A stretch of 23,812 nucleotides of DNA, taken from IMG/VR virus record IMGVR_UViG_3300042868_010659, positions 1 through 23,812 of that record; one strand, given 5' to 3'. A program made the translations under genes and the position numbers. This DNA is from a virus. Shown one piece after another: positions 1 to 21,100 of the stretch (the first letter of the stretch is position 1; each line of letters begins with the position of its first letter). The notes under the pieces are model-generated. The model was not told where the DNA came from, did not search any database, and saw only the letters and a program-made list of their open reading frames with translations.

Positions 1-75
1 AAAAGTTATTTCAAGTGGTAAAATTATATCTTTATCACTTACATTTAAACTAAATCTATAATAATTATTATTCAC
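1..75 (-). CDS. 5' end of an unidentified gene, probably virion protein (runs off window)
   Basis: A reading frame begins with GTG at 75-73 and stays open for 25 codons to the window edge, giving a peptide that starts MNNNYYRFSLNVSDKDIILP. The GTG lies inside the last codons of the 579-aa gene, and the two genes share the 8 bases GTGAATAA (start codon of one, stop codon of the other). The next gene junction upstream has the same 8-nt overlap (ATGTCTAA), which is the main reason to believe this start. No ATG is available in the frame before the edge. The product cannot be identified from 25 residues; its place directly after two tail-type genes suggests another tail or baseplate protein. Confidence 0.55.
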   Translation of the reverse strand, partial: MNNNYYRFSLNVSDKDIILPLEITF

Positions 76-1807
76 AATTGTCAGTTGTTGGTTGGTTTAT
101 CAAGGTAGTAGTCACAACATTAGTTCTTAATATTGGTCTTTGTAAAAATAATGCGTTTTTAAATGGGTAGTGTGCACCATTTGTAAAAGGGTAGTCAACA
201 CCAACACCATCACCATCTATAAATCCATAAGTGTAGATATCTCTCCACATAAAAGTTTGGTCATATTCGGAATACCACGCATATTTTGGAACATTATCAA
301 CATCGTTTCTATTTCCAAACTCCAAATAATCACTAAAAACCCTTATTGGTATTTCGTGATGTGCTTGATAAGCATAACCACTCGGAAAATTAATATTTGA
401 ATTATCATAAAAATAAGTTGAGTTAAAAGAATACTTGTGGTATATTGGTGATAGTACGTATTCTTTTTGTTCTTTATAATTATACTCACAAAAATCACCT
501 TTAATTATATTATTTTCATTTAATAACTTATTGTAATAAAAGAATTGTCCTGACGCCGCAGGATATTCGTAATTTTCTAATAGTATATAATCTTTATTTG
601 ATAAAGACGAATGATTCCACCAAGTATCAATATTATCCCTTTGGAAATTGAACCCCCAACCGATGTCTAACCCTACGGGACTTCCATCTATATTAATTGC
701 AGGTGGGTTAAACCATCCCATATAACCTCTATGAACAAAAGTCAAAAATAAATTTGTTACAGGTTTTCCGTTGTTATCTTTTAATCCGGATATACTTATA
801 TCTTTATCAAAACTAAACGTAAATGACTTAGACCCATCTTTAACCGATACTCTTTGTGTTTGATTTGGTGTAAGTGCAGAATATTCAAGTTTTGATTTTA
901 CAGAAAACGGATTAGTTTCAAAACCAGCCTGAACCAAATTTCCGTCATCACCATTAGTTAGTATTTTATTTAATCTTATATAATAGATAGATTTGGTTTC
1001 ACCGCTATTTTGTATATTACTAATCCTTTTAAAATTACCATAAGTCCCTGTTGTTGTTTCAACAGGTGGAAATTTCAAATCAAAAATTGTAAATACGTTT
1101 TCTTCTGAACCATAAGACCCATCACCTAAACTATAAACTTGGTGTGTGGTCTTTCCTCCTAATCCTGCGGGGTTTGATGGTATTGATAACTCAACGTATT
1201 CACCTACTGATAGATTATGGTTTGTTCCACAATAAAAATAAACTAACGATTTACCGTTAAGTGTTCCTGTATCAATAACAAAAGGTATTCCATCAGAAAC
1301 TATAAAGTTATTTGTAACATTAAACCTTTCGTTTGTATATGACATAGGTTGTTGTGTGTCACTACTAAATGGATATGACACATAAATTGACCAATTATAT
1401 GTTGTTGAACTTTTTGGAACAAACTCTACGTGACCCGTAATACCACTACTTCTAATAAATGTAAATTCACTAAATTGTGGGTATCCTTCCCAAGGTGAAC
1501 CAGGAAGAGCACTTGCATTTGCAATAGAATTTGTGTAGTATAAATCGTTTTTGAATGGTGTGTAATTTGTTTGACCTGAAATCGTATTTTGAAATATATT
1601 TACAATTTTTCCTGCGATTCTAAATACATCACTTTCTTGTCTTTCCTTATCAAATTGTTCTGCTTGATTGATAACGGCAGACCTATCACCCTCAACCATT
1701 GTTCTCATATCACCAATCAATGGTGGTTGAACCCAAACGTCTTTGTCGGTGTTAGACGCATAACGTTTTGAACCTAAAACAATTAATATTTCGTTTTCAT
1801 TAGACAT
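68..1807 (-). CDS. Unassigned 579-aa protein, probable baseplate/tail structural component
   Basis: A 579-residue protein rich in Asn, Ser, Thr, Tyr and Phe, with short alternating beta-type stretches, few charged clusters, no signal peptide and no transmembrane helix; this composition is typical of phage tail and fibre proteins. I see no catalytic motif. Its start ATG (1807-1805) overlaps the stop of the 1668-aa gene by 8 nt (ATGTCTAA), so translation is probably coupled. The gene order gp25-like, gp6-like, 1668 aa, 579 aa parallels the T4 order 6-7-8, so a gp8-like wedge role is possible by position only; T4 gp8 is 334 aa, and I see no convincing sequence match. Host-binding or fibre-attachment roles are equally open. 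Confidence 0.75.
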   Translation of the reverse strand: MSNENEILIVLGSKRYASNTDKDVWVQPPLIGDMRTMVEGDRSAVINQAEQFDKERQESDVFRIAGKIVNIFQNTISGQTNYTPFKNDLYYTNSIANASALPGSPWEGYPQFSEFTFIRSSGITGHVEFVPKSSTTYNWSIYVSYPFSSDTQQPMSYTNERFNVTNNFIVSDGIPFVIDTGTLNGKSLVYFYCGTNHNLSVGEYVELSIPSNPAGLGGKTTHQVYSLGDGSYGSEENVFTIFDLKFPPVETTTGTYGNFKRISNIQNSGETKSIYYIRLNKILTNGDDGNLVQAGFETNPFSVKSKLEYSALTPNQTQRVSVKDGSKSFTFSFDKDISISGLKDNNGKPVTNLFLTFVHRGYMGWFNPPAINIDGSPVGLDIGWGFNFQRDNIDTWWNHSSLSNKDYILLENYEYPAASGQFFYYNKLLNENNIIKGDFCEYNYKEQKEYVLSPIYHKYSFNSTYFYDNSNINFPSGYAYQAHHEIPIRVFSDYLEFGNRNDVDNVPKYAWYSEYDQTFMWRDIYTYGFIDGDGVGVDYPFTNGAHYPFKNALFLQRPILRTNVVTTTLINQPTTDNCE

Positions 1808-4800
1808 CTTGATTCAATATATATTTAGTTATGTATCTACTTATTGCACTTTTTCCAACATTCAAACCAAAATAAAAATGGTATGGTGAACCAACTAAAA
1901 ATGTATTTGTTTGTCCATTAGGGAATGTTTCATCTGTTCCGTTTGCATTGGAGTTGTATATGTACCCTCTTCTACCGTATGGTGTGATGTTATTAAAGTA
2001 GTTTGATAACGGTGATTGGTAAAAACTCAAATCTTGATATTTTTGTGAATAGAATCCGTTACCTTGTAATCCTGTGTCCCAATCGTTTGTGTCTGAACCA
2101 AATATTGTAGGAACTGTTTGTTGGTTCAAAGTCCATTGATAAAAAGGTACTTCTTGTGTTTTTGGAAACCCATAGTAATTTGTAAGAGTAGGGGTAAATG
2201 TAGTTATTCCCGGACTCACAACAAGTCTGTTTTCAGTACTTGATGTAAAGAATACACCGACAGTTGCTGGTCCTGATGTTGCAAGATATATGTCACCTGC
2301 ACCATCGTATTCATCTTCACTAAATCCAGCAACACCATATTCAGAGTTAATACTAAATAACTGAACAATGTCACCATCCATTCTGTCATCACTTCTAGAA
2401 AACATTTTGTTAATTGATGCATCTCCTAAACCAATTAATGCTGATAAAAAGTTGGTATTTAAAAGTCTTGATATAATAAATAACTGTAAAAGGTCTGATG
2501 TGTCATTAAATGACGTTGTTTTAATTGTATCAACAATATAACCTTGAAATTGTGGGTTTGCACATATTTCTTGTGTGAACTCATCTCTTGGTCCTAAGTC
2601 CATTATCGTTGTTGGAAATAATATATTTCTTTCATTTGCACCTCCAAAATCAACAGGTTGTTGTGATGGGTTAATTATGTTCCCTTGTAATGGTACTTGA
2701 CCAACAAAATCGGTACCATTATATGGTGTTGACCTATAAAAGAAAGAGTTTGTTGTTCCTGATGTATAGAAAACAGGTCCTTGACCTGGTCTATAAATGG
2801 AATCATAAGTTCCACAAAACTTATACTTTTTGGGTTGTCCTAAAATGTTAAAGGTTAATTGTTTTTTAAACGAAAACATATAAAGTGTACCATTAACCCA
2901 ATTGTTTTGAAAAACGTGAGCAAAGATTCCTCTACAAGCACCAAACATCATTCTAAATCTAGCCTTCCATTCTGAAAAGTTTTTTAAATCTTTTACTATG
3001 TTAACTATATATGGTTTTTGAATAAACTGATAACAACCATTTTTTACTCTTGTCGGGTCTTCGTTTTGTGGACAAGGGTCAATTACAGTAAAACTATTAG
3101 TTGCGGGGTCAACTTGGTAACAATCAAGTGGCACCATTCCAGCACAATCAAAAGTAGATAACACACTACTTGTTGCTCCTGTATTATCTGGTCCAAAATC
3201 TTGAGCATTATTAGATGTGTCAGTAGCTTGAACTAAAAAGTTAGAGGAAGGCCCCGAACTATTATAGACATATATTGCAAAATTATCATTTTGATGTAAT
3301 AAATGTGATATATTACCATTTGATATTTGTTGTTTGTCCGATGTTGGTAATCTATCCGACCTAAAAACTAATTTAGGGTTTGGTCCGGCGATTGTAACAC
3401 CCAATGAAGGTAGTGTTTGTTGATATGTGAATGAGTAATTTCTTCCTTGAAAACTACTTAATGGGTTGAAATCATTTCCTGGTGTCTTATTTGATGTTAA
3501 AAGTGAACCTCCTTCAACATTACCTTGATAAACTGTATCATAAAATTTTAAATTTTGGTTTGCAATTCCATTATCAGAAACTGTTGATGTATTTATCCAA
3601 TAACTTAACGGTTGTGGAAAAGTACTTTGATATCCTGTAGTTGATTTATCCAATGAAGAATAAAATCTAATTGTACTAGACGTAACAGAACTAAACTGTG
3701 TGTTATCAACTTGAAAATTAAAGGGTTCGTGATACAGTGTTGATGTTGAATAGGGGGCTGAGTGTGATTCGGGTGTTTGTGAGTTAACATACCAAGGTTG
3801 ACCTACTCCGGTATTCGGTTGTACAGGTATGTTTAAATAATACTCACCACTTATTATTGGACCATTACCATATGAATACCCAAATAATCTTGACAAGTCA
3901 TACTGAATATTTTGTTTATCACTGTAAGGGTCAACACCTCTTACTAAAAACACAATCTCTTGATTTTTCCAAGAATCGCCAATTAATGTTAATGGATTTA
4001 TTAATTCAGTTCTGTTATTGTTATTTGCATCACGATAATATATATTCTGTAATTTATTTAAAAAATACTTTCTTAAAAGACTTGATTGGTCGTATTGTGA
4101 CGCAGGGTTTGGGTTTGTAGAAACCTGTATTCCATCCACCATTAAATCAGCACTTAATGCGGTCATACCTGTCACCACTTGAAAATATTCAAAACCGGTT
4201 TTAAACAAGTACTCTTTTTCTGTAGTAGTTCCTGACACCGCAACATTTATAGTTACAGGTGTACCACCTATAGGGTTAGCATATGTTATTGGTACATTTG
4301 TAGTTGTTGTGAAAGAAGACCCTGTAATTGCATTTGAACCAAACTGATTAGATATTGTTAATCCTGTTATGTTTCTATCATTTATGTTTGTTGTATCGTG
4401 AAAAGTCACAAGTGACCCCGGTGTTAATTGACTTAAACTTCCTTGGTCAAGTAGTAATATCAACATATTATCATAAATCGGAGCACTACCATTGATTACT
4501 GTTTGAATTTGGTTTGGTGCCGTCGTATCAAAATATCTTGTTTTTAAATTTGCAAGATTTAAAGATTGTGCAAATGTAACGTCTCTTTGTCCAACCCATT
4601 TATCGTTTGTTAAATCTGCAACCAGTGGTACCCCAATTTCAGGTGCGGTTGGATATCCCGCAATACCATATCTAATCCCATAACTGTCTGCTTGATATTT
4701 TTGGTTTTCCACAGTGTTGTTACCGTTATACTCTGTTGGGTCTAAATAACAAAAATACGTAGGGTATCCTCCACTCAGAATTTGGTCTCCATTATTATCA

Positions 4801-6806
4801 AAGGTACAGATATTTGTGTTTGGTACACTTCCCCAAAATACGTTTGAATTAACGTCAGCTAATAATGAATTATTACTTCTTGAAGTTACCGTATAATCTC
4901 CAAATTGAGTATTTTGACTTGACCCGTCGCTTGTAAATAACCCACCTTGTATTTCATCAGTTTCAGTGTCTGGAACGTCACACGCACAAGCTTCACAATC
5001 AGGGTAGGACATCATCGGTAACGTTAACCCTTTGAATTTGAATTGTGTTAATAATGGTGATACTTTGATTGCAAACAACGTGGCCGCTGCAGTCAAAGCA
5101 ATTGCCGATAACCCATAGACAACCGTGAGTCCAACTGCAGGAAAAGCCGATACTGCGGCTATCCCCGATTGAACCGCTAAATAAACTAAAAGTCCAGGTA
5201 TCGCAATCGCCAACGCCCACTTCAATATTGGCCAAGCAAGTGCCAATACGTGTAAAACAGGTATTAACGCAACAAATACAGGTGTAAATATAGTAACAAA
5301 TAGATTGAATAAGAAAAATATAAAATCAAAATTCTTTACCCCGTCATTAACAGGAAAACGATTGTTAGTGGTCGTACATCTTCTATCTGTAATTTCTTTT
5401 ATACCTAAATGTCTAAATCTATTATACCCCCATTTCCATCTGTCAATGAAGTTTGCAATGGTATATACTTTATTATAATTAAATTCGTAGAATCTATCTT
5501 CACAATTAATTGCTTCACTAATCATTTGAAGTCCTTGTGATGTTGTTGCATCACCATAATCATTCCAATCCAAACTAAATGCGTAGGATTTGTTTTGTGC
5601 AACAGAACCTGCGGGTGGATTTGTGGATGTCCATCCCCATTCTTTAATGTTTGGAACTAAATAATCTGCTCTTAATATGTTGTTTTCTAATCCCGCTTCG
5701 TTTTGATATTGAATTCTGAATCTATACCTACCTTTTGTTGGTATTCCTATTTTTGGGTCGTTTGATAATATTTGTTCTCCAAATTCATTAGTTGTTACAT
5801 AATCTAAATTCATTGGGAGTTCCGTCAACCAGGTTCCGTTATCATCAATAACTTTTCCTCCTTCAGGTAATGGGAATTGTTCTAATATTGGTCTTCCGTC
5901 AACATCGTAATCAATTGTTTGTCTTATTGCTAAAATTGTTCCAGGTGCGGTAACCAAATCACAAAGATTTCCTGTATCTTTTTTTGGTTTACAATTTGTT
6001 TTCAAATAATCTTCTTCGGGTGTAGAAAATATTGAACCCATAAAAATTGAGTGTGGTGTGATTTCAATACCAAAATCTCTTAAATCAAAATCAACTCTTG
6101 TAATTCCTATATCACATAAACCATCTTCGCCCCAAAATGGTGTTATATCCGCATCTGTTTTTATGTTTACTATTTGTGGTAATGAACCTAAATCTGTTGA
6201 CGATTTAAACTGGTCTCCATTAAATTGTTCAGGCCCAGCCAATCCCGCTCTTATAAAGTCGGCAGGTCTTAATGAAAAACAACCAATATTTGAAAGGTCT
6301 AAGTCTAATACAACTGTCTGAACACCAAGTGGCACACCTATAATCATAAAGTCACCACTCTCGTTTGTTTTTACAGTAAACTTATAATATTTTTCATATA
6401 CTTCTAATACTTCCTTTCTTGTTAAGACATCTTCTCTGTCAGGAAATGTTCCTGTTGGTGTGTGTCCGTTGTATTCTTTTCTATAAGGTAAAAGGTTATA
6501 TCTATACCCGTCTTCGTTTTTTTGGTCAACTGTTTTGTATGGGTATAGTGTTGATATTACAACATCGTCTTCGTCTTCCATTTGTAGTGGTACAAAGACA
6601 GATACCGTAGCGTTTGGTACTCCGTAACCACCATTCACGATTACTCTTCCTGCAATTACACCATAGTCAGCACAGAACCTAGTATAAACCTCATCTTGTC
6701 TTATTTTTAAAGATAAAATTTCTAAAAAATCAAAGTCTTGGTTTAAATTTACACGTATATTTTTGTCAACACCAGGTGTTGTTCTTATCCTATAACTTTT
6801 GGTCAT
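1800..6806 (-). CDS. Giant 1668-aa baseplate-locus protein with internal hydrophobic domain
   Basis: A 1668-residue protein. Residues about 48-170 look like a carboxypeptidase-regulatory/transthyretin-type beta sandwich: GRVIVNGGYGVPNATVSVFV followed by the recurring pattern F.V.TNESGDFMIIGVPLG. Residues about 493-583 are almost purely hydrophobic, enough for three or four membrane helices, and are followed by a cysteine cluster (C604, C607, C609). The remaining thousand residues are Asn/Thr/Ser/Gly-rich beta-type sequence like that of tail proteins. It follows the gp6-like gene after a 72-nt gap and overlaps the next gene by 8 nt, so by position it could replace T4 gp7 (1032 aa). I do not recognise it as a named family. 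The membrane-like core is odd for a baseplate protein and might act in membrane contact or DNA entry; that is inference. Confidence 0.8.
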   Translation of the reverse strand: MTKSYRIRTTPGVDKNIRVNLNQDFDFLEILSLKIRQDEVYTRFCADYGVIAGRVIVNGGYGVPNATVSVFVPLQMEDEDDVVISTLYPYKTVDQKNEDGYRYNLLPYRKEYNGHTPTGTFPDREDVLTRKEVLEVYEKYYKFTVKTNESGDFMIIGVPLGVQTVVLDLDLSNIGCFSLRPADFIRAGLAGPEQFNGDQFKSSTDLGSLPQIVNIKTDADITPFWGEDGLCDIGITRVDFDLRDFGIEITPHSIFMGSIFSTPEEDYLKTNCKPKKDTGNLCDLVTAPGTILAIRQTIDYDVDGRPILEQFPLPEGGKVIDDNGTWLTELPMNLDYVTTNEFGEQILSNDPKIGIPTKGRYRFRIQYQNEAGLENNILRADYLVPNIKEWGWTSTNPPAGSVAQNKSYAFSLDWNDYGDATTSQGLQMISEAINCEDRFYEFNYNKVYTIANFIDRWKWGYNRFRHLGIKEITDRRCTTTNNRFPVNDGVKNFDFIFFLFNLFVTIFTPVFVALIPVLHVLALAWPILKWALAIAIPGLLVYLAVQSGIAAVSAFPAVGLTVVYGLSAIALTAAATLFAIKVSPLLTQFKFKGLTLPMMSYPDCEACACDVPDTETDEIQGGLFTSDGSSQNTQFGDYTVTSRSNNSLLADVNSNVFWGSVPNTNICTFDNNGDQILSGGYPTYFCYLDPTEYNGNNTVENQKYQADSYGIRYGIAGYPTAPEIGVPLVADLTNDKWVGQRDVTFAQSLNLANLKTRYFDTTAPNQIQTVINGSAPIYDNMLILLLDQGSLSQLTPGSLVTFHDTTNINDRNITGLTISNQFGSNAITGSSFTTTTNVPITYANPIGGTPVTINVAVSGTTTEKEYLFKTGFEYFQVVTGMTALSADLMVDGIQVSTNPNPASQYDQSSLLRKYFLNKLQNIYYRDANNNNRTELINPLTLIGDSWKNQEIVFLVRGVDPYSDKQNIQYDLSRLFGYSYGNGPIISGEYYLNIPVQPNTGVGQPWYVNSQTPESHSAPYSTSTLYHEPFNFQVDNTQFSSVTSSTIRFYSSLDKSTTGYQSTFPQPLSYWINTSTVSDNGIANQNLKFYDTVYQGNVEGGSLLTSNKTPGNDFNPLSSFQGRNYSFTYQQTLPSLGVTIAGPNPKLVFRSDRLPTSDKQQISNGNISHLLHQNDNFAIYVYNSSGPSSNFLVQATDTSNNAQDFGPDNTGATSSVLSTFDCAGMVPLDCYQVDPATNSFTVIDPCPQNEDPTRVKNGCYQFIQKPYIVNIVKDLKNFSEWKARFRMMFGACRGIFAHVFQNNWVNGTLYMFSFKKQLTFNILGQPKKYKFCGTYDSIYRPGQGPVFYTSGTTNSFFYRSTPYNGTDFVGQVPLQGNIINPSQQPVDFGGANERNILFPTTIMDLGPRDEFTQEICANPQFQGYIVDTIKTTSFNDTSDLLQLFIISRLLNTNFLSALIGLGDASINKMFSRSDDRMDGDIVQLFSINSEYGVAGFSEDEYDGAGDIYLATSGPATVGVFFTSSTENRLVVSPGITTFTPTLTNYYGFPKTQEVPFYQWTLNQQTVPTIFGSDTNDWDTGLQGNGFYSQKYQDLSFYQSPLSNYFNNITPYGRRGYIYNSNANGTDETFPNGQTNTFLVGSPYHFYFGLNVGKSAISRYITKYILNQDV

Positions 6807-6878
6807 TGGTCTTTTTTAAAATAAATAGTTATGTTCCTATTTTTAAAAATAGACGTAAATTCAACAAAATAAACAATC
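6807..6878 (-). promoter_or_regulatory. 72-nt leader of the 1668-aa gene: palindrome and TATTTAT motif
   Basis: The gap between the gp6-like stop and the 1668-aa start holds a perfect 16-nt palindrome, CTATTTTTAAAAATAG (6837-6852), and, 14 nt before the ATG, CTATTTATT (core 6821-6827 read on the minus strand). The same TATTTAT core occurs before four other genes here, and three times before the gp25-like gene. A promoter or processing site for a separate structural transcript is plausible; neither element is a consensus host promoter. Confidence 0.35.
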
Positions 6879-8717
6879 TTATCTGAAGTCCACCGTTTTA
6901 AGATTTTTAACTCTTACTTTAATGTCTTTGTTATCAAATCTTATTTGGTATATTTGTGAAGGTTCTGCAAAAATAGTATCGTCAATTAATGAGATTTCTC
7001 TTGTTGTTTTATTAACGTATTTTTGTGATGTCTCTGAAGAAGAATAAAGACCACCAACTTTATTATAAACTTTTAAATCAGATAATGTGGAAACACCGCC
7101 TGTGTTTTGTATCAATCTTCTAATGTCCGATACATTTACATTTTGACCCATTTCCCTATTACCAGGTGCCATATAATCGGTTATTGAATTAATGATTTCT
7201 GTAATTACTTGACCTTGATTTCTATCTGACTCCAATACAACAAATATCTCAAACTCCAAGTCAATAACTTTTGCAACATCAATAGAAATATAATCATTAA
7301 CCATTCTATATTTTGATAAGTAATTTGCTAAGTTACTCTTTAAATTGTTAGGAACAACTTGTGTTAGTTTACCTGATGTGTCATAAGATAAAAGTTGGAC
7401 TGTAACTTTGTTGTTTTTTTCAGTTATTGCTACTTTTGCAGGTGCTCCAAATTTTCCTGGCATCGTATCTATTAATGATTTGTAATCACTAACTGTAACC
7501 GCTCTTTTTTGTGCTGCAAAATTAAACGACACCATATTTCTAACTTCTTCTGTTGTCGGTGGATTAGCCCCACCAATTGCTGCGGTCACGTTAGTTACCG
7601 CCAATGATTGTTGAACATTCGTATTTATAGCATCAGATGGCCCATTCACAGCAAAATCAATTGTTCCTATTTGATTAATTACTCCAACTCCGACATTTGT
7701 AGAAATACCACCACCAATTCTATATTGTACAAAGATTGTTGTACTTGGTTGTACTGTTAATCCAAGACCTATATTATTTTGGTAATTTCCAAGGTCTAAT
7801 TTAATACCGTTACGAGCAAACTCTTGTAATTGTTGATTTGGTGTTGTTGTTCCTCCACCAAATTGTATTCTTAAAAATCCTTCAGGGGTGTATTCTGTTA
7901 TAAACCTATTTTCTGTTTTAATATATTTTCCAACTTTAATACCGGCACTATCTGTTGGTTTAGTCGTATCTTCAATGAATACCGTATCTTCTGCAAGGGC
8001 ATCTACTTCATACCATCTTCCTTGGTCACTTAAAAATTCTGAATATGTAGGTATACTAGGATAACTAGTCCCGTCTTTTTGTATAATAGATGTAACACCT
8101 AAAACGTTTCTTTCAGGAAGAAAGAATTCAAAAAACGGAACTACATCAGATGGGTTTATTACTCTTTTAAATACCTTTGTTGTCCCATTAACAACGACTT
8201 CTCTTTTTGTTATAACGTAATTGACTATTTTATTATTAGCATCAAATGTTGGTATTTTGGTTCTATTTACAAAACCTTCTTGATTATATTGTGTTGAAAA
8301 GTCAATATCATAAACAGTTTCAAAGGTATTACCTCCTCCATTAAATTGTGAACCCGCTCTTAAAATACCTAAATATCTATAATCTTCACTATCACCAAGT
8401 GGTGGTACAACTATAGAGACATCAACCACAGCAACTGAAGGTCTGTACCCCGGTATTTTCAACCCATATGTTCTTGCAATGTTATAAATAGAAGACCTTT
8501 GTTGGGCATATTGTAATACTGTTTCTTGTATACTTCTGTCAATATGAAAATGTAGGTTGTCACCAATAGCAGCGTTTAAATCCATCAACACAGAAAAGAT
8601 GGATGCATCATTAAAGTTCTGTATTAACTCTGGGTAATACTGTTTTGTGTAATTGATTAAGTCCTGTCTTAATCCAGCAAAATCTCTATTTGTATAATTA
8701 ATTTTTTGATTAGCCAT
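6879..8717 (-). CDS. Baseplate wedge protein, T4 gp6-like
   Basis: A 612-residue protein (T4 gp6 is 660). The N-terminus INYTNRDFAGLRQDLINYTK, followed by YYPEL and the segment SIFSVLMDLNAAIGDNLHFH, is the hallmark of the gp6/gpJ-type baseplate wedge family. A central part around residues 390-430 (TTEEVRN, AQKRAVTVSDYKSLI) matches the conserved core of these proteins. In T4, gp6 dimers join wedges into the ring around the hub and drive the sheath-contraction switch. The start ATG at 8717 is 2 nt after the stop of the gp25-like gene, so the two are surely cotranscribed; gp25 and gp6 are direct partners in the wedge. Cytoplasmic assembly, then virion component. Family assignment is firm; fine function is by homology. 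Confidence 0.92.
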   Translation of the reverse strand: MANQKINYTNRDFAGLRQDLINYTKQYYPELIQNFNDASIFSVLMDLNAAIGDNLHFHIDRSIQETVLQYAQQRSSIYNIARTYGLKIPGYRPSVAVVDVSIVVPPLGDSEDYRYLGILRAGSQFNGGGNTFETVYDIDFSTQYNQEGFVNRTKIPTFDANNKIVNYVITKREVVVNGTTKVFKRVINPSDVVPFFEFFLPERNVLGVTSIIQKDGTSYPSIPTYSEFLSDQGRWYEVDALAEDTVFIEDTTKPTDSAGIKVGKYIKTENRFITEYTPEGFLRIQFGGGTTTPNQQLQEFARNGIKLDLGNYQNNIGLGLTVQPSTTIFVQYRIGGGISTNVGVGVINQIGTIDFAVNGPSDAINTNVQQSLAVTNVTAAIGGANPPTTEEVRNMVSFNFAAQKRAVTVSDYKSLIDTMPGKFGAPAKVAITEKNNKVTVQLLSYDTSGKLTQVVPNNLKSNLANYLSKYRMVNDYISIDVAKVIDLEFEIFVVLESDRNQGQVITEIINSITDYMAPGNREMGQNVNVSDIRRLIQNTGGVSTLSDLKVYNKVGGLYSSSETSQKYVNKTTREISLIDDTIFAEPSQIYQIRFDNKDIKVRVKNLKTVDFR

Positions 8718-8719
8718 AG

Positions 8720-9184
8720 TTAAATATTTATAATGACAAATTCTCTTCCACCGAAGGCTTTATTTTCGTCTGTGTAATCAATTTTTATTTTTGCAGTGTA
8801 TTCTGCGGTATTTGCACCTGGTACTCTAAATATACTAGCCTGACCTAACAATTCATAATTTAACTGTCCGGTAACTTCATCACTTTCAGTATATGGTTGT
8901 ATTGTGATACTATTAATTGTTAAATTTGGTATGTACTTAGCCACCTGTTCTTCAATTTCTGACTTTATACTTTCAAAAGTTTCTCCATCAAGTGGTTCAA
9001 AAATAAATTCATATAATCTTGTACCAAAATCAGGTAAATAATATCTACTACCTCTTCTAGTTAAAAGTAAATGTAATAAATTTGACCTAATTTCATCATT
9101 CGCAAATTCTGTAAGTAATAAATAATCCCCTACACTACTTTGTCTGAAAGGAAAGTTTATACCGTATGTTGTTCCATTTGCCAT
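8720..9184 (-). CDS. Baseplate wedge protein, T4 gp25 / GPW family
   Basis: A 154-residue protein (T4 gp25 is 132). It has the GPW/gp25 signature: an early F..E....V..NL.HLL.T pattern (here TEFANDEIRSNLLHLLLTRR), then G.R.Y.PDFGTRL and FEPLD. The C-terminal half carries the expected strand pattern and an extra beta hairpin. gp25-like proteins sit at the inner baseplate, bind the gp6-type wedge ring and start sheath polymerisation; homologues serve the same role in type VI secretion and phage-tail-like bacteriocins. The gene opens the structural unit, following a strong terminator, so it needs its own promoter in 9185-9230. It ends 2 nt before the gp6-like gene. Confidence 0.93.
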   Translation of the reverse strand: MANGTTYGINFPFRQSSVGDYLLLTEFANDEIRSNLLHLLLTRRGSRYYLPDFGTRLYEFIFEPLDGETFESIKSEIEEQVAKYIPNLTINSITIQPYTESDEVTGQLNYELLGQASIFRVPGANTAEYTAKIKIDYTDENKAFGGREFVIINI

Positions 9185-9230: not shown

Positions 9231-9257
9231 AAAAAAATCCCTACTTTCGTAAGGATT
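9231..9257 (-). terminator. Intrinsic terminator with GAAA tetraloop, stop codon inside the stem
   Basis: On the minus strand AATCCTTAC pairs with GTAGGGATT across a GAAA loop (arms 9257-9249 and 9244-9236, one T-G wobble), followed at once by five T. The TAG stop of the DUF5522-like gene (9243-9241) is in the descending arm, so the last codons also encode the terminator. It separates this small gene from the baseplate operon. Confidence 0.85.
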
Positions 9258-9468
9258 CTTTTAAGTTTTTATTACCTTTTTTGTGAAGAGGTTCATAAGG
9301 ACAATGTAAACAACCATTACCACAACAACTACCTCTTTTCATATGGTATTCTTCAGTCATAACCATTTTACCGTTTTCCCAATAGAAATCTGTCTGTTGT
9401 AACTTAGGTTTTACAAATTCCTTAATATACATTTCTTGTATCCAATCTTTTGATGCTCCTACGTTCAT
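9241..9468 (-). CDS. DUF5522-like small cysteine-cluster protein (75 aa)
   Basis: A 75-residue protein with a central FYWENGKMVMTEEYHMKRG segment followed by CCGNGCLHCPY, giving Cys at 48, 49, 53 and 56. This matches the DUF5522 pattern as I know it from Bacteroidota genomes, where these short proteins have the form F..GyVVFTe.YH..RG.CCgngCrHCPY. The Cys arrangement could hold a metal ion, zinc or an iron-sulphur cluster, but no biochemical role is known to me. The N-terminal 25 residues and the Lys-rich tail are less conserved-looking. The gene follows the GIY-YIG gene and a 26-aa ORF and ends in its own terminator. It is probably host-derived; why a phage keeps it is unknown. Confidence 0.8.
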   Translation of the reverse strand: MNVGASKDWIQEMYIKEFVKPKLQQTDFYWENGKMVMTEEYHMKRGSCCGNGCLHCPYEPLHKKGNKNLKESLRK

Positions 9469-9554: not shown

Positions 9555-10274
9555 TTAAATATTATCTTTTTTAAATCTCCATTTATAACCACCGGCGGTT
9601 TTTTGTTTACCCCAACAAGCATCTGAAATACAACACCTATTTACATTATTTTTTTTTGATGCTTCATCAATACTACTATAAGACTCAATATATTCACCAT
9701 AAACTGTTAACTTTTCCACTTCTTTAAACTTGGATTTTGCTATTTTATATTTTGTTTCATCGGTTCTTTTTTTTCCTTTGTTTTTTTCACTAATTTTTAA
9801 TTTAGTTTCATCTGAGAATGGTTTTGTGTTTTTCCCGACATTTAATCTTCCTTCTTTATATAGTTTTTTCATTTTTTCGGAGTGTTTCGGTTTTTTAACT
9901 CCAGTTTTCTTTTCTACTGCCTTTAAGTATTTATCAGAATTTTTAACACCATAAGATAATTTATTATAATACTCTTCTAATTCATCATCTGTGAAACCTG
10001 CTCTCGTATTTCCACCATTACCACCTTCAGCAATGTTGTATCCAATTTTTTTATCATAACTTTTAAGTTTATGAATCCAAAATTTTTCAAGTAAGTTTAA
10101 TTTTTTTTCACAATCAACCTCTTCTATTATTTCTTTATTAAAGTTATGAATACCATACTTTTTTTTAGCGTTTTCTAATGCTATTCCAGAACCTAAATAT
10201 TTTTCATTATTATATTTAGATTTCCCAATATATATTTTGTTGTTAATCAGATTTGTTATTTTATAAATTACCAT
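9555..10274 (-). CDS. Free-standing GIY-YIG homing endonuclease with NUMOD motifs
   Basis: A 239-residue protein. The N-terminal GIY-YIG nuclease domain (residues 1-90) shows VIYKITN, then KIYIGKS (YIG at 15-17), a catalytic-type Glu in LLEKFWIHKL (E63) and YNIAEGGNGG. It has two NUMOD3-like DNA-binding repeats (about 128-142, KPKHSEKMKKLYKEG, and 151-184, KPFSDETKLKISEKN) and a NUMOD1-like helix-turn-helix at 193-235 (SIDEASKKNNVNRCCISDAC, then GGYKWRF). Such enzymes cut intronless alleles in related phages and spread by repair. The gene is not inside an intron here: nrdJ upstream is intact and has its own terminator. The sequence is Lys-rich and more A-rich than its neighbours, as expected for a mobile gene. 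An Arg matching I-TevI R27 is not obvious, so activity is not certain. Confidence 0.9.
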   Translation of the reverse strand: MVIYKITNLINNKIYIGKSKYNNEKYLGSGIALENAKKKYGIHNFNKEIIEEVDCEKKLNLLEKFWIHKLKSYDKKIGYNIAEGGNGGNTRAGFTDDELEEYYNKLSYGVKNSDKYLKAVEKKTGVKKPKHSEKMKKLYKEGRLNVGKNTKPFSDETKLKISEKNKGKKRTDETKYKIAKSKFKEVEKLTVYGEYIESYSSIDEASKKNNVNRCCISDACWGKQKTAGGYKWRFKKDNI

Positions 10275-10346: not shown

Positions 10347-12206
10347 TTAAATAACCTCGCAAGAACCATTCGTACAGGCTAATTCGCCACTTAAATTAGT
10401 ATTGTCCTGTAATTCAATTACTTTTGTTAGGTCAACATTTTTTAATGTCGCTAGTAATCTTTCGTACTCTTCTTTAGTACAATCCTCATAGGGAGCCTGC
10501 TTGTAAGTATGATTTGAGTAGGGTAATACTGATAATCCGTTGTAGAAATTTCTTGAATTCCACATCCAATCACCAACTAATTCCCACTCATCTTCTTTGA
10601 TTGACACTGTTGCTGATACATTGTGCGTGTTTTGACCTGTTCTATGCCCAGGTTTAATCCACTCTTGAGAAACTTTCTTAACTCTTTCCAACATTTGGAA
10701 TACCGACTCATATCTCAAAATTGAACCTTCCGGTGCTCTTTGTGGAATAGTAATAACCGCAGTATCGTGTGGACGGAAAAACTCATCTTCAATTAGTTCT
10801 GGATGGTTAATGTAAAGATAGTTGTAAATTGATTCATTTTTTCCAACACGGATTCTTCTTAAATAGTAGTCATTGTGCCAAGCGTGAATACCTGAAGATG
10901 TGCCCAAAACCAATGATGAAGTTCCCGATGGTTTTACAGTAGTTGTTCTTGCTGATTTGTTAATTCCAATAAGACCAGCAACTCTTTCGTTTTCTTCTTT
11001 TACAACTTTTGCCGCCTTTTTCATATCATAACCCAACACAACACCTGAACCAATACCTGTCATTCCAACACCAATAAGTGCGTCTTTTTCAGTTGTTCTT
11101 TTCCAAATATCACGAAGGTAATGGAAGTCGGTATATCCCGCTTGAAGTGTTCCAATGAAAGATGCTGCTCTAACTCTATTTTCAAAATCTTCTTGTGATT
11201 CAATGTCTGATGCATTTACTTCACAAAGATTACAGAATTGGAAAGGTCTTAGTGCGATTTCACAACAAGGGTTTGTTCCCCAATCTTTATCATTAGATAG
11301 ATAAATACCTGGCTCTCCTGCCCCTGATAATTCAATTCTTTTCCACAAATCCATAAAGTATTCTTTTGTGATTTTGTGACGAAGAAGAACTGCAGAATTG
11401 TTAGCTCTACCTCTTTGTGCATTTTGTTCCCACCAATTTCCTGACTTACAAGAAATCATTTCTTCATCATCTGCAGAAAACAAAGAGATAAGTGCTGCTC
11501 TTCTAATACCACCAGCAAGAACTGCGTCAGCAATATGACATACGATATCGTGAGTTTCAATAGGTGTTAATCTATCACCATCTTGTTTGTTTTCCAACAC
11601 CTTAGTAATGTTGTGAATACAATCTTTAAGTGGTTGTGGTCCTGGCGCCTTTCCTCCTGATGTAACAAGTTGAGCCCCTTTATGACGAATATCAGAAAAA
11701 TCAAACACAGGTGTTGATGATTTCACTCCAAGGTATGATTCAATTAATACTTTGATTGCATCTGCCCATCCTTCAATTGAATCTCCGATGAGGTATCTTC
11801 TTGTTCTATTAGGATTTGGACGTTTTACTTCAGGTAGTTTTTCTACGTGATGTTTTTGAACTGAGAATCCAACACCAGTTCCCCCTAACAATAAGAACAT
11901 TGTTTCAGAAAAAGAATCTACGTGGTCAATTGGCATATACGCACAGTTGTAAACTCTGTTTGGTGAAATCTCAATCGGTTTTCCTCCGAATTGTAAAGAC
12001 CTCATAGATGGTAATACTTTCTTATCGTATACCATTTTATATACCTCCTCAATTTGGTCTTTAATTTGAGGGTATTTTCTTTGGTGCATCTCTTTGTTTC
12101 TTGTCACCAACTCTTCCCAAGTTTCTCTTCTTTCTTTTTCAGGTAGAAACTTAGCGTATTTCATATAGACAGTAATGTCACTTAATATTTTTTGCGAAAT
12201 ATCCAT
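10347..12206 (-). CDS. nrdJ: Adenosylcobalamin-dependent (class II) ribonucleotide reductase
   Basis: A 619-residue enzyme that reduces ribonucleotides to deoxynucleotides for phage DNA synthesis. All five functional cysteines of the monomeric Lactobacillus-type enzyme are identifiable by spacing: C88 (NRVYNC) and C325 as the active-site redox pair, C314 in NPCCEI as the thiyl radical site with N312 and E316, and C611/C616 in the C-terminal CTNGSC tail that re-reduces the active site. The 11-residue C314-C325 and 5-residue C611-C616 spacings equal those of the Lactobacillus enzyme (408/419, 731/736). The length fits an uninterrupted gene with no intein. It starts 26 nt after the helicase stop and ends with a strong terminator. 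No NrdA/NrdB gene lies in the window, and the host or its environment must supply B12. Confidence 0.93.
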   Translation of the reverse strand: MDISQKILSDITVYMKYAKFLPEKERRETWEELVTRNKEMHQRKYPQIKDQIEEVYKMVYDKKVLPSMRSLQFGGKPIEISPNRVYNCAYMPIDHVDSFSETMFLLLGGTGVGFSVQKHHVEKLPEVKRPNPNRTRRYLIGDSIEGWADAIKVLIESYLGVKSSTPVFDFSDIRHKGAQLVTSGGKAPGPQPLKDCIHNITKVLENKQDGDRLTPIETHDIVCHIADAVLAGGIRRAALISLFSADDEEMISCKSGNWWEQNAQRGRANNSAVLLRHKITKEYFMDLWKRIELSGAGEPGIYLSNDKDWGTNPCCEIALRPFQFCNLCEVNASDIESQEDFENRVRAASFIGTLQAGYTDFHYLRDIWKRTTEKDALIGVGMTGIGSGVVLGYDMKKAAKVVKEENERVAGLIGINKSARTTTVKPSGTSSLVLGTSSGIHAWHNDYYLRRIRVGKNESIYNYLYINHPELIEDEFFRPHDTAVITIPQRAPEGSILRYESVFQMLERVKKVSQEWIKPGHRTGQNTHNVSATVSIKEDEWELVGDWMWNSRNFYNGLSVLPYSNHTYKQAPYEDCTKEEYERLLATLKNVDLTKVIELQDNTNLSGELACTNGSCEVI

Positions 12207-17195: not shown

Positions 17196-17897
17196 TTAAT
17201 ACTCTTCATCTTCTTGGTCGTAAGAATTGAACGTCTTTTTTACTTCGTTTGGTGAAAAGTTTTCAACCTCGTCGGATGTTAAAACATACTCATTTTTACC
17301 TGTCTCTTCCATTTCTTGTTTTTTGTCATCAAAAAAATCAGTCAATTTTTGGTTATAAGGATAAGAATCTAAAGACCTTAACATAAGTTTTTCTTCAGGG
17401 GTTTTATCTCTGTATCTATCAAACTTGGTTTCCAATGAATTTATTTTATTCATTATGTCATCCATATGTTGTAATTTCTTTTCTAAATCATCAAGTTTAG
17501 AAAACATACCATCCATAAACTCTTGTTGTTTAGTTTGTATTTCTTGTTGACTAGTAACTAAATCTGTGATGTCAACTTCTTCAGTTTCTTCTTCACCTTC
17601 TTTTTCATCACCAACTTCTTCAATATCAGGGTCTTTTTCAACATCTATTGGTTCAGGAACTTCGGTTGGTGCTGCGGCGTCCCCTTCAGGTGCTGCTGCA
17701 TCTGCCCCTGGTTCCGGTGGTGCCGCGGCATCAGCTGCCGGAGCTGCGTCTGCCGGTGGTGGAGGTACGGCAGCATCATCTGCCGGTGGTGGTAAAGCCC
17801 CTTCAGGTTCTCCAACAGGAGCATCTTGTTCATTAATATAGTTATTAATTTGGTTAAATCTTCTTAGTTCTTCTAATATTTTTTTATCTACATTCAT
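17196..17897 (-). CDS. Unknown 233-aa protein: Ala/Pro/Asp-rich linker, acidic segment, coiled coil
   Basis: Residues 1-25 form a helix-like head (KKILEELRRFNQINNYINEQ). Residues 26-83 are almost only Ala, Pro, Asp, Glu and Gly, with repeats such as PPPAD and DAAAPE. Residues 84-110 are strongly acidic, and 113-165 are a coiled coil (QQEIQTKQQEFMDGMFSKLD, then LEKKLQHMDDIMNKINSLET). The last 65 residues (TPEEKLMLRSLDSYPYNQKL, then EYVLTSDEVENFSP) look like a conserved folded or binding region. The low-complexity part is notably GC-rich for this genome, because Ala and Pro codons demand it. The layout suggests a scaffold, chaperone or virion-internal protein. It starts 15 nt after the 75-aa gene and ends at a terminator. 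No family is recognised. Confidence 0.8.
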   Translation of the reverse strand: MNVDKKILEELRRFNQINNYINEQDAPVGEPEGALPPPADDAAVPPPPADAAPAADAAAPPEPGADAAAPEGDAAAPTEVPEPIDVEKDPDIEEVGDEKEGEEETEEVDITDLVTSQQEIQTKQQEFMDGMFSKLDDLEKKLQHMDDIMNKINSLETKFDRYRDKTPEEKLMLRSLDSYPYNQKLTDFFDDKKQEMEETGKNEYVLTSDEVENFSPNEVKKTFNSYDQEDEEY

Positions 17898-17912
17898 TTT
17901 GTAATATATTTT

Positions 17913-18140
17913 TTAACCGTTTAAAAGTGTTTTAACCCCTGTAGGTGTTTCAACTCTCAATGTTCTATTAGTTTTAATTGTATTATCAACTCTTTCAATC
18001 AATCCATCTTTCATTCTGATTGTATAACAATCACCTGTGTCCAAATCACAAACTTGTTTATGGTCACTATCTATTTGTCTTTCACTGATTCTTGTGTCTT
18101 TTCTCAAGTAATCATCCAATAAATTTTTTACACTACTCAT
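17913..18140 (-). CDS. Unknown 75-aa protein between the giant tail gene and the 233-aa gene
   Basis: A 75-residue protein with a charged helical start (MSSVKNLLDDYLRKDTRISE) and a short beta-type second half (CDLDTGDCYTIRMKDGLIER, TLRVETPTGVKTLL). Two Cys, C31 and C38, frame DLDTGD and might form a pair or a turn. No signal peptide or membrane segment. It begins 27 nt after the giant gene, with a candidate promoter overlapping the end of that gene, and ends 15 nt before the 233-aa gene. The even codon pattern, the A-rich leader (TAAATTAAAAGTT) and the tight spacing support a real gene. I do not recognise the family. Confidence 0.75.
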   Translation of the reverse strand: MSSVKNLLDDYLRKDTRISERQIDSDHKQVCDLDTGDCYTIRMKDGLIERVDNTIKTNRTLRVETPTGVKTLLNG

Positions 18141-18157
18141 AACTTTTAATTTATATA

Positions 18158-18188
18158 TAAATATACACTAAATTTGATTTGTTTCAAA
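18158..18188 (-). promoter_or_regulatory. Candidate promoter of the 75-aa/233-aa pair (TTTG-N19-TATATTTA)
   Basis: On the minus strand TTTG (18188-18185), exactly 19 nt, then TATATTTA (18165-18158). The spacing and form are the same as at the SSB promoter; the last G of TAnnTTTG is again absent. It overlaps the last codons of the giant gene and would leave a leader of only about 10 nt. It also contains one of the TATTTAT cores (18157-18163). Confidence 0.4.
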
Positions 18189-21100
18189 TGCTTGATATGC
18201 AACAGTATATAATTCTACCAAATCAGGGTATGTTGAGAATCTTCCATCATTATATTCCTGTAAAACAGCATCTCTTATTTGTTGCCCACTTAATTGTGGT
18301 GGTCCAAATGCTATAGGTGTTTCCCAAGTTGTTATAGCAATTTGAGTTAGTGCTTTACCATATTCTTTATAAACATTTGTATCACTATTTAATGTTTTTA
18401 AGTTTTCTATCAATGGTAAAATTTGTGTATAGAATGAAACCATAAAATCAAATGATGTTGTGTTCGCAGTAAAACTAGCAAATGCCCTTGTTGTTCCTTG
18501 AACATCAATACAAACTTGTTCAGTTAAATACGTATCCATACTTCCGTTAAATTTGTTTTCAGTAGATATTTCAAAGAAGTTAAAGTTACTAATTTCAAAG
18601 GTTGTGGCCGCACCATTAAATGAATTTAAAGGTCTTGTTGTTGCTAGTCCATAAAGTAACGCCCTTAATCTATTGTCGGTTGTTGCATTTTTAATCAATG
18701 GTATTACTTGTTCCAATGTAAAAATAGTTTTACTAATATCCACAAATGGTAGTGATTGGTATTTTGTTACTTCAACACACTTATTTGTTGGTGCACTTAC
18801 AGGAGTAATAACAGGGTCTATTGTGATTTTCTTTTCTTCTTCTGTTACTACTTTTTCTGTTTTAATTTTTTCTTTATATGATTGTAATAATTTTGCATTT
18901 GTATTGATAACTAATTTATCAACATTTGGTAAACTATATTTCGGTATTCTAGTTCCTTTAAAATTAGTGGTAAATGCGTTTTCGCTAATGTTATGTGTTA
19001 CTTCATAAATCCAATAAGGACCATAAAACAATGGTACGTGTCTTAACACAAAATACATTGTTGGTTGTATCATTGCACATCCCATAGACGACACTCCACA
19101 GCTATAAGACCTTGATTTATATATGCTATACATTGACACTGATTGTTGTGCAACTTTGTCTCCTGCAACTGAACTTCCAATATCGGCAAACACTTTAAAA
19201 GATTCTGAAGTATTTTTCATTTCAGACATATCTAAATCAATTTCTTTAAATATGCTTTGGTTTTGAACTCCAAAGTCAACACTGAAACCAACCACTCTAT
19301 TAGTTTTTGAATAATCTCTTTTTGGGTCAGAAACTCTTAAGGGGTTATCGGCGATTCTTAAATCAAAGCTGTCATCGTCAAATCTAATAAAAGAATTTTC
19401 TTTTGGTTTAGGGTACTCGGAAGGATTACCCATATATAAACATAAGAATTTTGGACTTGAATCTGTGTAATCCACTTCTAAATATGTACCAAATAAGGAG
19501 TTTGGTATATCAATATCAATCGGTTTACCGTTTTTGATTGCTTGTTGTATGCCATAAAAGTTTATGTATGCTGGCATCGCAAAGAACATAAACTGATTGT
19601 CACCTAATATATTACTAACAACAGTCATTAAGTTCATATCAGGATTTGATTTTACATCTAACCTTTTAATAATTTGGTCTATATCAACAACATAAACATC
19701 TCCGATATCACTATTTGCTCTATCCATAAACAAAAAGTCTTCAAATAGAGTTACGTATTTTAAATCAGAACCTGCAATCCATTTATCATTAAAGGCCTTT
19801 AATGTGTTATACAATGTCAATTTTCCAACATCTCCTGACACCGCACTTGCAACAACATTTGTATTAACACTAATTTCCTTTAGATTTTTATTTAAACTTG
19901 CAAATGTTTCATTCAACATTTTTGTTTGTAAATCCTGTTGGTCAGTTAAAAACTGATTTATTAGTGATGTGAATTTAACTTTATTAAGTGTCGGGTCTTT
20001 TATTTTTTGTGTGACATAAATTCTAATAAGTGGTGATAATGTTTTAACATATTCTTCAGTAAACGCAATATCCATATCAATAAAGAAGTCAGCAACATAT
20101 GATTTTGGTGAACCAGGTAATGGAACTACAGGTGGGGTAGTATTATTAAATGTTGCCACAATTTGTTGTTGTGGTGGGCCTGTTATTATTGGAGCAATTA
20201 ATTTAATTGGATTTGTTAAATCAGTTGGTCCATTAGGGAAGTATTCTACTACTATTTGATAGTTACCTGATGTATTGTTATTTACTTCACAAACATATAC
20301 GTCATTTGTGTCAGTTGATATGTTTACAGTGCTTTGTACAATGTTTGATATATCTGTTATGTCTGTATTTGCTTTATAAAATAATATTTGACCTATTTTA
20401 TCTCTTGTAAAATTAGGGTCACCTACTACTTGAATAACTTGATATCCACCTGTTGGTTTTACAATGTTAAAGTAACTTGAATTTAAAGTAGAGTTAGTAT
20501 CTAACCCAGGAATAATTGATGATGAATCACCGACAAGTTTAAATTGAACTGAATTTGTTAAAGTATTTGTTGGGCAATTAACTAAAGAACTAAAAAACGA
20601 AAGACAGTAAGATGCCGGATTTGCATTACTTTGTGGTGTGTTACTTTCAGTTAATAAGTTATAATTAGTTGTAACACCTGTGTCATTTGTTATTTTTGTG
20701 GCACAAAAGTTTCTTTGATTTCCACTATTGTCCAATACTTTCAAATACCAAACAGTATCATTTGTATAATTGTTAGCAACCGTACTTAAATTGTTAGGGT
20801 CTGTTACATTAAAAATTTGATTTGTACAAAGGTCTTTAAATGTGTTAGATGTTCCACTAGCAACAGGTGGTGAGTATGTTGTAATATTTGGTGTTGGTGG
20901 TGCAATTGCCGTAGACGGGAAGTTAACATCTAATTGGTTTTCGTAATCAACACCAGGTATTGTGGAAAAACCTAAATATAATCTCAAAGCATTCCAAGCA
21001 CTTGGGTTTTGTGTGATACTTTGTAGTAAGGTAACGTTTGTTCCGTCTCCTGGTAATGCTCCTTTTATATAAGGAACAAACGTTAATTTGTCTTTTTCGG

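Follow-up and report, generated by a model that had tools for sequence, protein, structure and literature searches.

The window analysed here is the whole 23,812-nt stretch of the IMG/VR virus record IMGVR_UViG_3300042868_010659. Its minus strand carries a baseplate gene cluster in which a gp25-like and a gp6-like wedge gene are followed by a gene for a protein of 1668 residues, referred to below as the giant protein. The preliminary description had placed this protein after gp25- and gp6-like genes, and the Pfam and PHROGs matches of the two neighbors agree with that placement. The features at the locus are as follows.

68..1807, minus strand: 579-aa protein, the downstream neighbor of the giant protein, found in 19/19 neighborhoods; its start overlaps the stop of the giant gene by 8 nt.
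1800..6806, minus strand: giant 1668-aa baseplate-locus protein in the gp7 position, an ORF next after gp6 with homologous IMG/VR contigs.
1803..4979, minus strand: C-terminal region, residues 610-1668, beta-rich and partly confident in the AlphaFold model, with no fold match by Foldseek.
4980..4997, minus strand: invariant C604-x2-C607-x-C609 in YPDCExCxC, directly after the module, in 81/81 members; it lies in a low-confidence linker of the model.
5058..5330, minus strand: hydrophobic helical module, residues 493-583, by hydropathy; hydrophobic in 81 members and helical in the AlphaFold model.
5376..5378, minus strand: invariant C477, directly before the module, in 81/81 members.
6297..6665, minus strand: N-terminal beta-rich domain, about residues 48-170, with strands in the model; Ig/transthyretin-like by weak fold matches only.
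6821..6830, minus strand: AACTATTTAT, candidate late-promoter -10 element, the sole exact copy in the window and conserved in 18/18 loci.
6879..8717, minus strand: gp6-like baseplate wedge protein (Baseplate_J; PF04865, phrog_219).
8720..9184, minus strand: gp25-like baseplate wedge protein (PF04965, phrog_261).

Beyond the gp25-like gene, the minus strand also encodes a 75-aa ORF matching DUF5522 (9241-9468), a GIY-YIG endonuclease-like ORF (9555-10274) and a ribonucleotide reductase (10347-12206). The endonuclease-like ORF, which most relatives lack, is located between the baseplate cluster and the reductase gene. The reductase has a B12-dependent (class II) insertion-domain match and shares 68% identity with Microcystis phage Mel-JY01; in many relatives its place is taken by a different two-gene set.

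The composition of the giant protein was examined by Kyte-Doolittle hydropathy. The preliminary description had proposed a nearly uncharged core of about 90 residues at 493-583, and this was borne out. The segment has only three charged residues (D494, K529 and K581) plus one histidine, with a mean hydropathy of 1.81 and a best 19-mer of 2.41. The best 90-residue window of the protein scored 1.83, compared with a maximum of 1.17 in 1000 whole-protein shuffles. Since its best 19-mer falls below the shuffle maximum of 2.86 and is unremarkable alone, the signal of the module is the length of the stretch. The best 90-residue windows in the gp6-like, 579-aa, 1823-aa, ribonucleotide reductase, helicase, RecA-like and gp32-like proteins of the window were all 0.23 or less.

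Relatives of the giant protein were encoded on 443 IMG/VR stretches in a single-sequence scan and on at least 595 in an alignment-based scan. The giant protein is thus a large protein family present on hundreds of IMG/VR contigs and not a single-contig oddity. No relative was confirmed in GTDB bacterial genomes, and tblastn against 50,697 phage records returned none with the giant protein of the window and chance-level matches only with a divergent member. The only Pfam match up to E = 1 was YbhQ at 0.11, PHROGs gave nothing meaningful and PDB sequences gave no match. These searches name a large protein family that is without a match here in Pfam, PHROGs, the PDB or the 50,697 phage records.

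Conservation was analysed in 81 diverse full-length members dereplicated at about 90% identity. The hydrophobic module followed by C-x2-C-x-C is kept in all 81, down to about 36% identity. From the NDG to the PDC motif the region spans 59-142 residues, and no member has a best 19-mer below 2.16 there. By simple counting, the modules hold one to five non-overlapping peaks of transmembrane (TM) length, mostly two or three. The cysteine cluster noted after the core in the preliminary description (C604, C607 and C609) is present and, together with C477, invariant in the 81 sequences, and the motifs flanking the module are strongly conserved. The module itself is more variable in sequence than the flank that precedes it, and its second half changes in both sequence and length among relatives with its hydrophobicity retained. 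The columns for residues 495-536 are almost all non-polar, with exceptions at N501, T505, T508, H519, K/R529 and, in part, N533. N501, T505, T508 and H519 fall within 40 degrees of one helix face, and the polar moment over this range peaks at a helical angle of 100 degrees (permutation p = 0.003, which is only indicative because the range was picked after inspection of the columns). A polar stripe on one face is what membrane helices would show if they packed against each other or lined a channel.

AlphaFold2 was used to model residues 1-1000 (81 sequences) and, in a second run, residues 590-1668. The first model had a pLDDT of 74.6 and a pTM of 0.42, and its domain packing is unreliable because of this pTM; the second had a mean pLDDT of 80.7 and a pTM of 0.58. 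The module was predicted as two helices, 495-553 and 558-588, in a block with a pLDDT of about 74-87, with linkers of pLDDT below 50 on both sides (480-494 and 597-609). Outside the module both models are mainly beta, and residues 1-45 are almost helix-free at a pLDDT of about 30-50. The outcome named beforehand as refuting a membrane role, a segment buried as the core of a soluble domain, did not appear; the model shows separate helices between low-confidence linkers. The three or four membrane helices suggested earlier fared less uniformly: the two predicted helices could hold up to four spans, but the span count is not fixed and many relatives have modules of two-span size. The giant protein does not fit a tape-measure protein with TM segments, as the models are mainly beta outside the module and not mostly helical. 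With Foldseek, neither model matched a PDB entry at E ≤ 0.001, and residues 590-1668 matched nothing in BFVD at this cut-off. The best matches of the N-terminal model were teneurin and Ig/pilin-like beta domains at E values of 0.0015-0.01, too weak for a claim.

The gene order gp25, gp6, giant gene and 579-aa gene was identical in 19/19 neighborhoods; in one of them, L151, gp6 and the giant gene are separated by an additional ORF of 304 aa. When the scan was begun from gp6, the giant gene was present in all 72 testable loci with room for it, and the hydrophobic segment preceded C-x2-C-x-C in 57/57 of the loci reaching that motif; the loci found in this way are mostly close relatives of the single gp6 query. 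The 8-nt overlap between the giant and 579-aa genes recurs in several loci, and its length varies among relatives. The 579-aa protein had no family match in Pfam or PHROGs and no homology to T4 gp7-gp11.

The gap between gp6 and the giant gene is about 70-90 nt in 18/19 loci and contains a conserved CTATTTAT-type element, which is found ahead of the giant gene in all 18 aligned loci. In the window, CTATTTAT starts 22 nt ahead of the giant start codon. The 162-kb relative G002 has 16 copies of CTATTTAT, 9 of which are placed 12-27 nt upstream of an ORF start, against an expectation of 1.9% of positions; among all 168 permutations of its letters, the motif ranks first for this placement. The genes preceded in this way include those for the portal protein, a 1587-aa tail-cluster protein and the giant protein. 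CTATTTAT looks like a late-promoter element, which would put the giant protein among the virion genes. A late structural role is likely because this late-type motif stands ahead of the giant gene and also ahead of the portal gene of a relative.

The relatives provide some indication of the virus and its host. G002 encodes T4-type sheath, tube, hub and portal proteins. The best 19-mer is 1.22 or less in its sheath, tube, T4_baseplate-type hub and 648-, 1587- and 2216-aa tail-cluster proteins. gp23 was seen in 3/10 long relatives, whose contigs may be partial. SprB repeats, a feature of Bacteroidota, were found in 9/10 related contigs and point to Bacteroidota as hosts; the phage would therefore have two membranes to cross. 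In locus L104, a PKD-domain gene (17595-18734, 380 aa) and a gene with SprB repeats (22662-25010, 783 aa, cut at the locus end) lie downstream and are probably fibre or adhesin-like tail genes that offer a host clue. The lineage appears to consist of abundant, uncultured T4-like viruses of Bacteroidota. Uncultured aquatic relatives of T4 linked to Bacteroidetes have been described as 'Far-T4' (PMC4360716, PMC7198788) and as 'moraphages' (PMC12619734). RM378, considered as an isolate relative representing Far-T4, has no credible giant, gp6 or gp25 homolog in its whole genome.

By position (gp25-gp6-giant), the giant protein is the counterpart of T4 gp7 (PDB 5HX2, 5IV5). Both occupy the slot directly after gp6, both are large and both contain TM-like sequence; the next gene in T4, gp8, overlaps gp7 by 8 nt, just as the 579-aa gene overlaps the giant gene of the window. 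The preliminary description held that T4 wedge proteins have no such hydrophobic part. This stands for a stretch of 90 residues, but T4 gp7 (L175 3061-6159) does have a single TM-like 19-mer at 886-904 with a hydropathy of 2.07, and the note in its GenBank record says 'C-terminus is predicted integral membrane domain'. A relationship to gp7, raised earlier as one to look for, found no backing in sequence: profile comparison detected no similarity (hhalign with T4 gp7, probability 0.14 on a 0-100 scale). There was likewise no gp7 among the listed Foldseek PDB matches of the giant models, which are of moderate confidence. We have not filed the giant protein as gp7 because no sequence or fold homology was found; no homology to T4 gp10 was found either. 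Since T4 gp7 is part of solved baseplate structures, hydrophobicity in the gp7 slot need not imply membrane insertion. The precedent may cut both ways: proteins in this slot may contact membranes, or such stretches may just be buried.

Other known systems offer partial parallels. The tail knob protein gp9 of phi29 has an L-loop that emerges as a helix barrel and penetrates the membrane (PMC6542822). Like gp9, the giant protein would be a beta-rich tail-tip protein with a hydrophobic insertion, its tail status coming from its locus and motif. However, gp9 forms the knob of a short-tailed virus and its emergence has been seen, whereas the giant protein is known from sequence and models; it had no PDB sequence match or significant fold match that would make it a gp9 homolog. 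The prePAAR/TMD effectors of the T6SS, too, carry membrane-type helices, and a contractile machine delivers them (PMC7773334). Theirs are N-terminal TMDs combined with PAAR, whereas the module of the giant protein is internal, and identity with such effectors was rejected as Pfam gave no PAAR match. Flavobacterium phage immuto and Microcystis phage Mel-JY01 encode large proteins (1265 and 1336 aa, respectively) a few ORFs past a clear gp6 homolog, but these positional counterparts are without a TM-like segment and show no homology to the giant protein (hhalign probability 0.17). The counterpart in LR756508 is not homologous either.

Hydropathy, the 81 members, the model, synteny, the upstream motif and SprB together give good support for a late protein of the baseplate locus, from a phage of Bacteroidota, with a conserved helical module of membrane type. 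The reading in the preliminary description, a tail-tip component that would insert in the host envelope or form a DNA channel, is thereby partly supported. The module may serve to breach or to anchor in the bacterial envelope. We give about even chances to the giant protein being a wedge protein in the gp7 position whose helical module enters or anchors in a host membrane on infection, much as the phi29 gp9 loop does. As a late structural protein of a contractile-tail baseplate, it would follow gp25 and gp6 in the wedge and fill the slot of gp7. Its beta-rich N- and C-terminal parts would be separated by two to four hydrophobic helices on flexible linkers, with invariant cysteines on either side. 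The baseplate of the free virion would keep these helices shielded; upon attachment or contraction, rearrangement of the wedges would let them swing into a host membrane. Once inserted, they could anchor the baseplate or line a membrane opening, by analogy with the hydrophobic loops of phi29 gp9. We infer the virion location of the protein, the shielding and insertion of its module, the identity of the membrane and any channel. Two further considerations speak against such deployment: the number of spans, and hence topology, differs between relatives, and the module would need to avoid the membrane of the cell that produces it.

The main rival to membrane deployment is that the helices form a structural bundle permanently buried in the assembled baseplate and never enter a membrane, for example by holding wedges together or forming a gp6-giant interface in place of a T4-type core bundle. 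We consider this possible but somewhat doubtful. Contractile baseplates do have a (gp6)2-gp7 helical core bundle (PMC10457771; PMC10811340), T4 gp7 is part of solved baseplates despite its TM-like 19-mer, and the polar stripe of residues 495-536 would also fit packed helices. In XM1, however, both proteins contribute to the core bundle with helices at their N-termini (PMC10457771), whereas the module of the giant protein lies at 493-588 and its N-terminus is predicted, at low confidence, to be helix-free. Ninety nearly uncharged residues also exceed what a bundle with a solvent-facing side should need, and a second half that keeps its hydrophobicity rather than its sequence and length is unlike a tight interface. 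Membrane deployment is favored for the last two reasons and because phi29 gp9 is a worked-out precedent for a tail protein that carries a hydrophobic insertion on flexible linkers (PMC6542822).

It is unlikely that the giant protein is a non-virion protein of the inner membrane made late in infection, such as an assembly platform or an exclusion factor. Its hydropathy is typical of an integral membrane protein, but its fixed place in the gp25-gp6 cluster, the upstream motif it has in common with the portal gene of a relative, the large beta-rich regions on either side of the module and the lack of any other baseplate gene in the gp7 slot all argue otherwise. The least likely of the explanations named, and a very improbable one, is that the giant protein is partly injected, with a module that aids translocation and depends on a dedicated chaperone for its solubility; the 579-aa neighbor might be this chaperone. 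Eag proteins are known to shield the TMDs of T6SS effectors in this manner (PMC7773334), and the neighbor is always present with an 8-nt gene overlap in several loci; yet the overlap length differs among loci, and neither protein matches PAAR, effector or chaperone families in Pfam or PHROGs.

A more tentative reading, to which we give rather low odds, has a multi-span module deployed by each of six copies of the wedge protein in this contractile-tail lineage. Anchoring in a host membrane, or opening it, would then be a task of the baseplate too and no longer of the tube tip or tape measure alone, and the cysteines on either side of the module (C477 and the triplet) would serve as a redox or metal latch. 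A disulfide latch is conceivable because the tail of phage Milano is locked by disulfides (PMC10811340); a metal site is equally possible. How contractile-tailed phages get their DNA across the inner membrane is a step that is not yet well understood. A clear, testable candidate is offered here by an abundant lineage in which a membrane-type module seems to be obligatory in the wedge slot.
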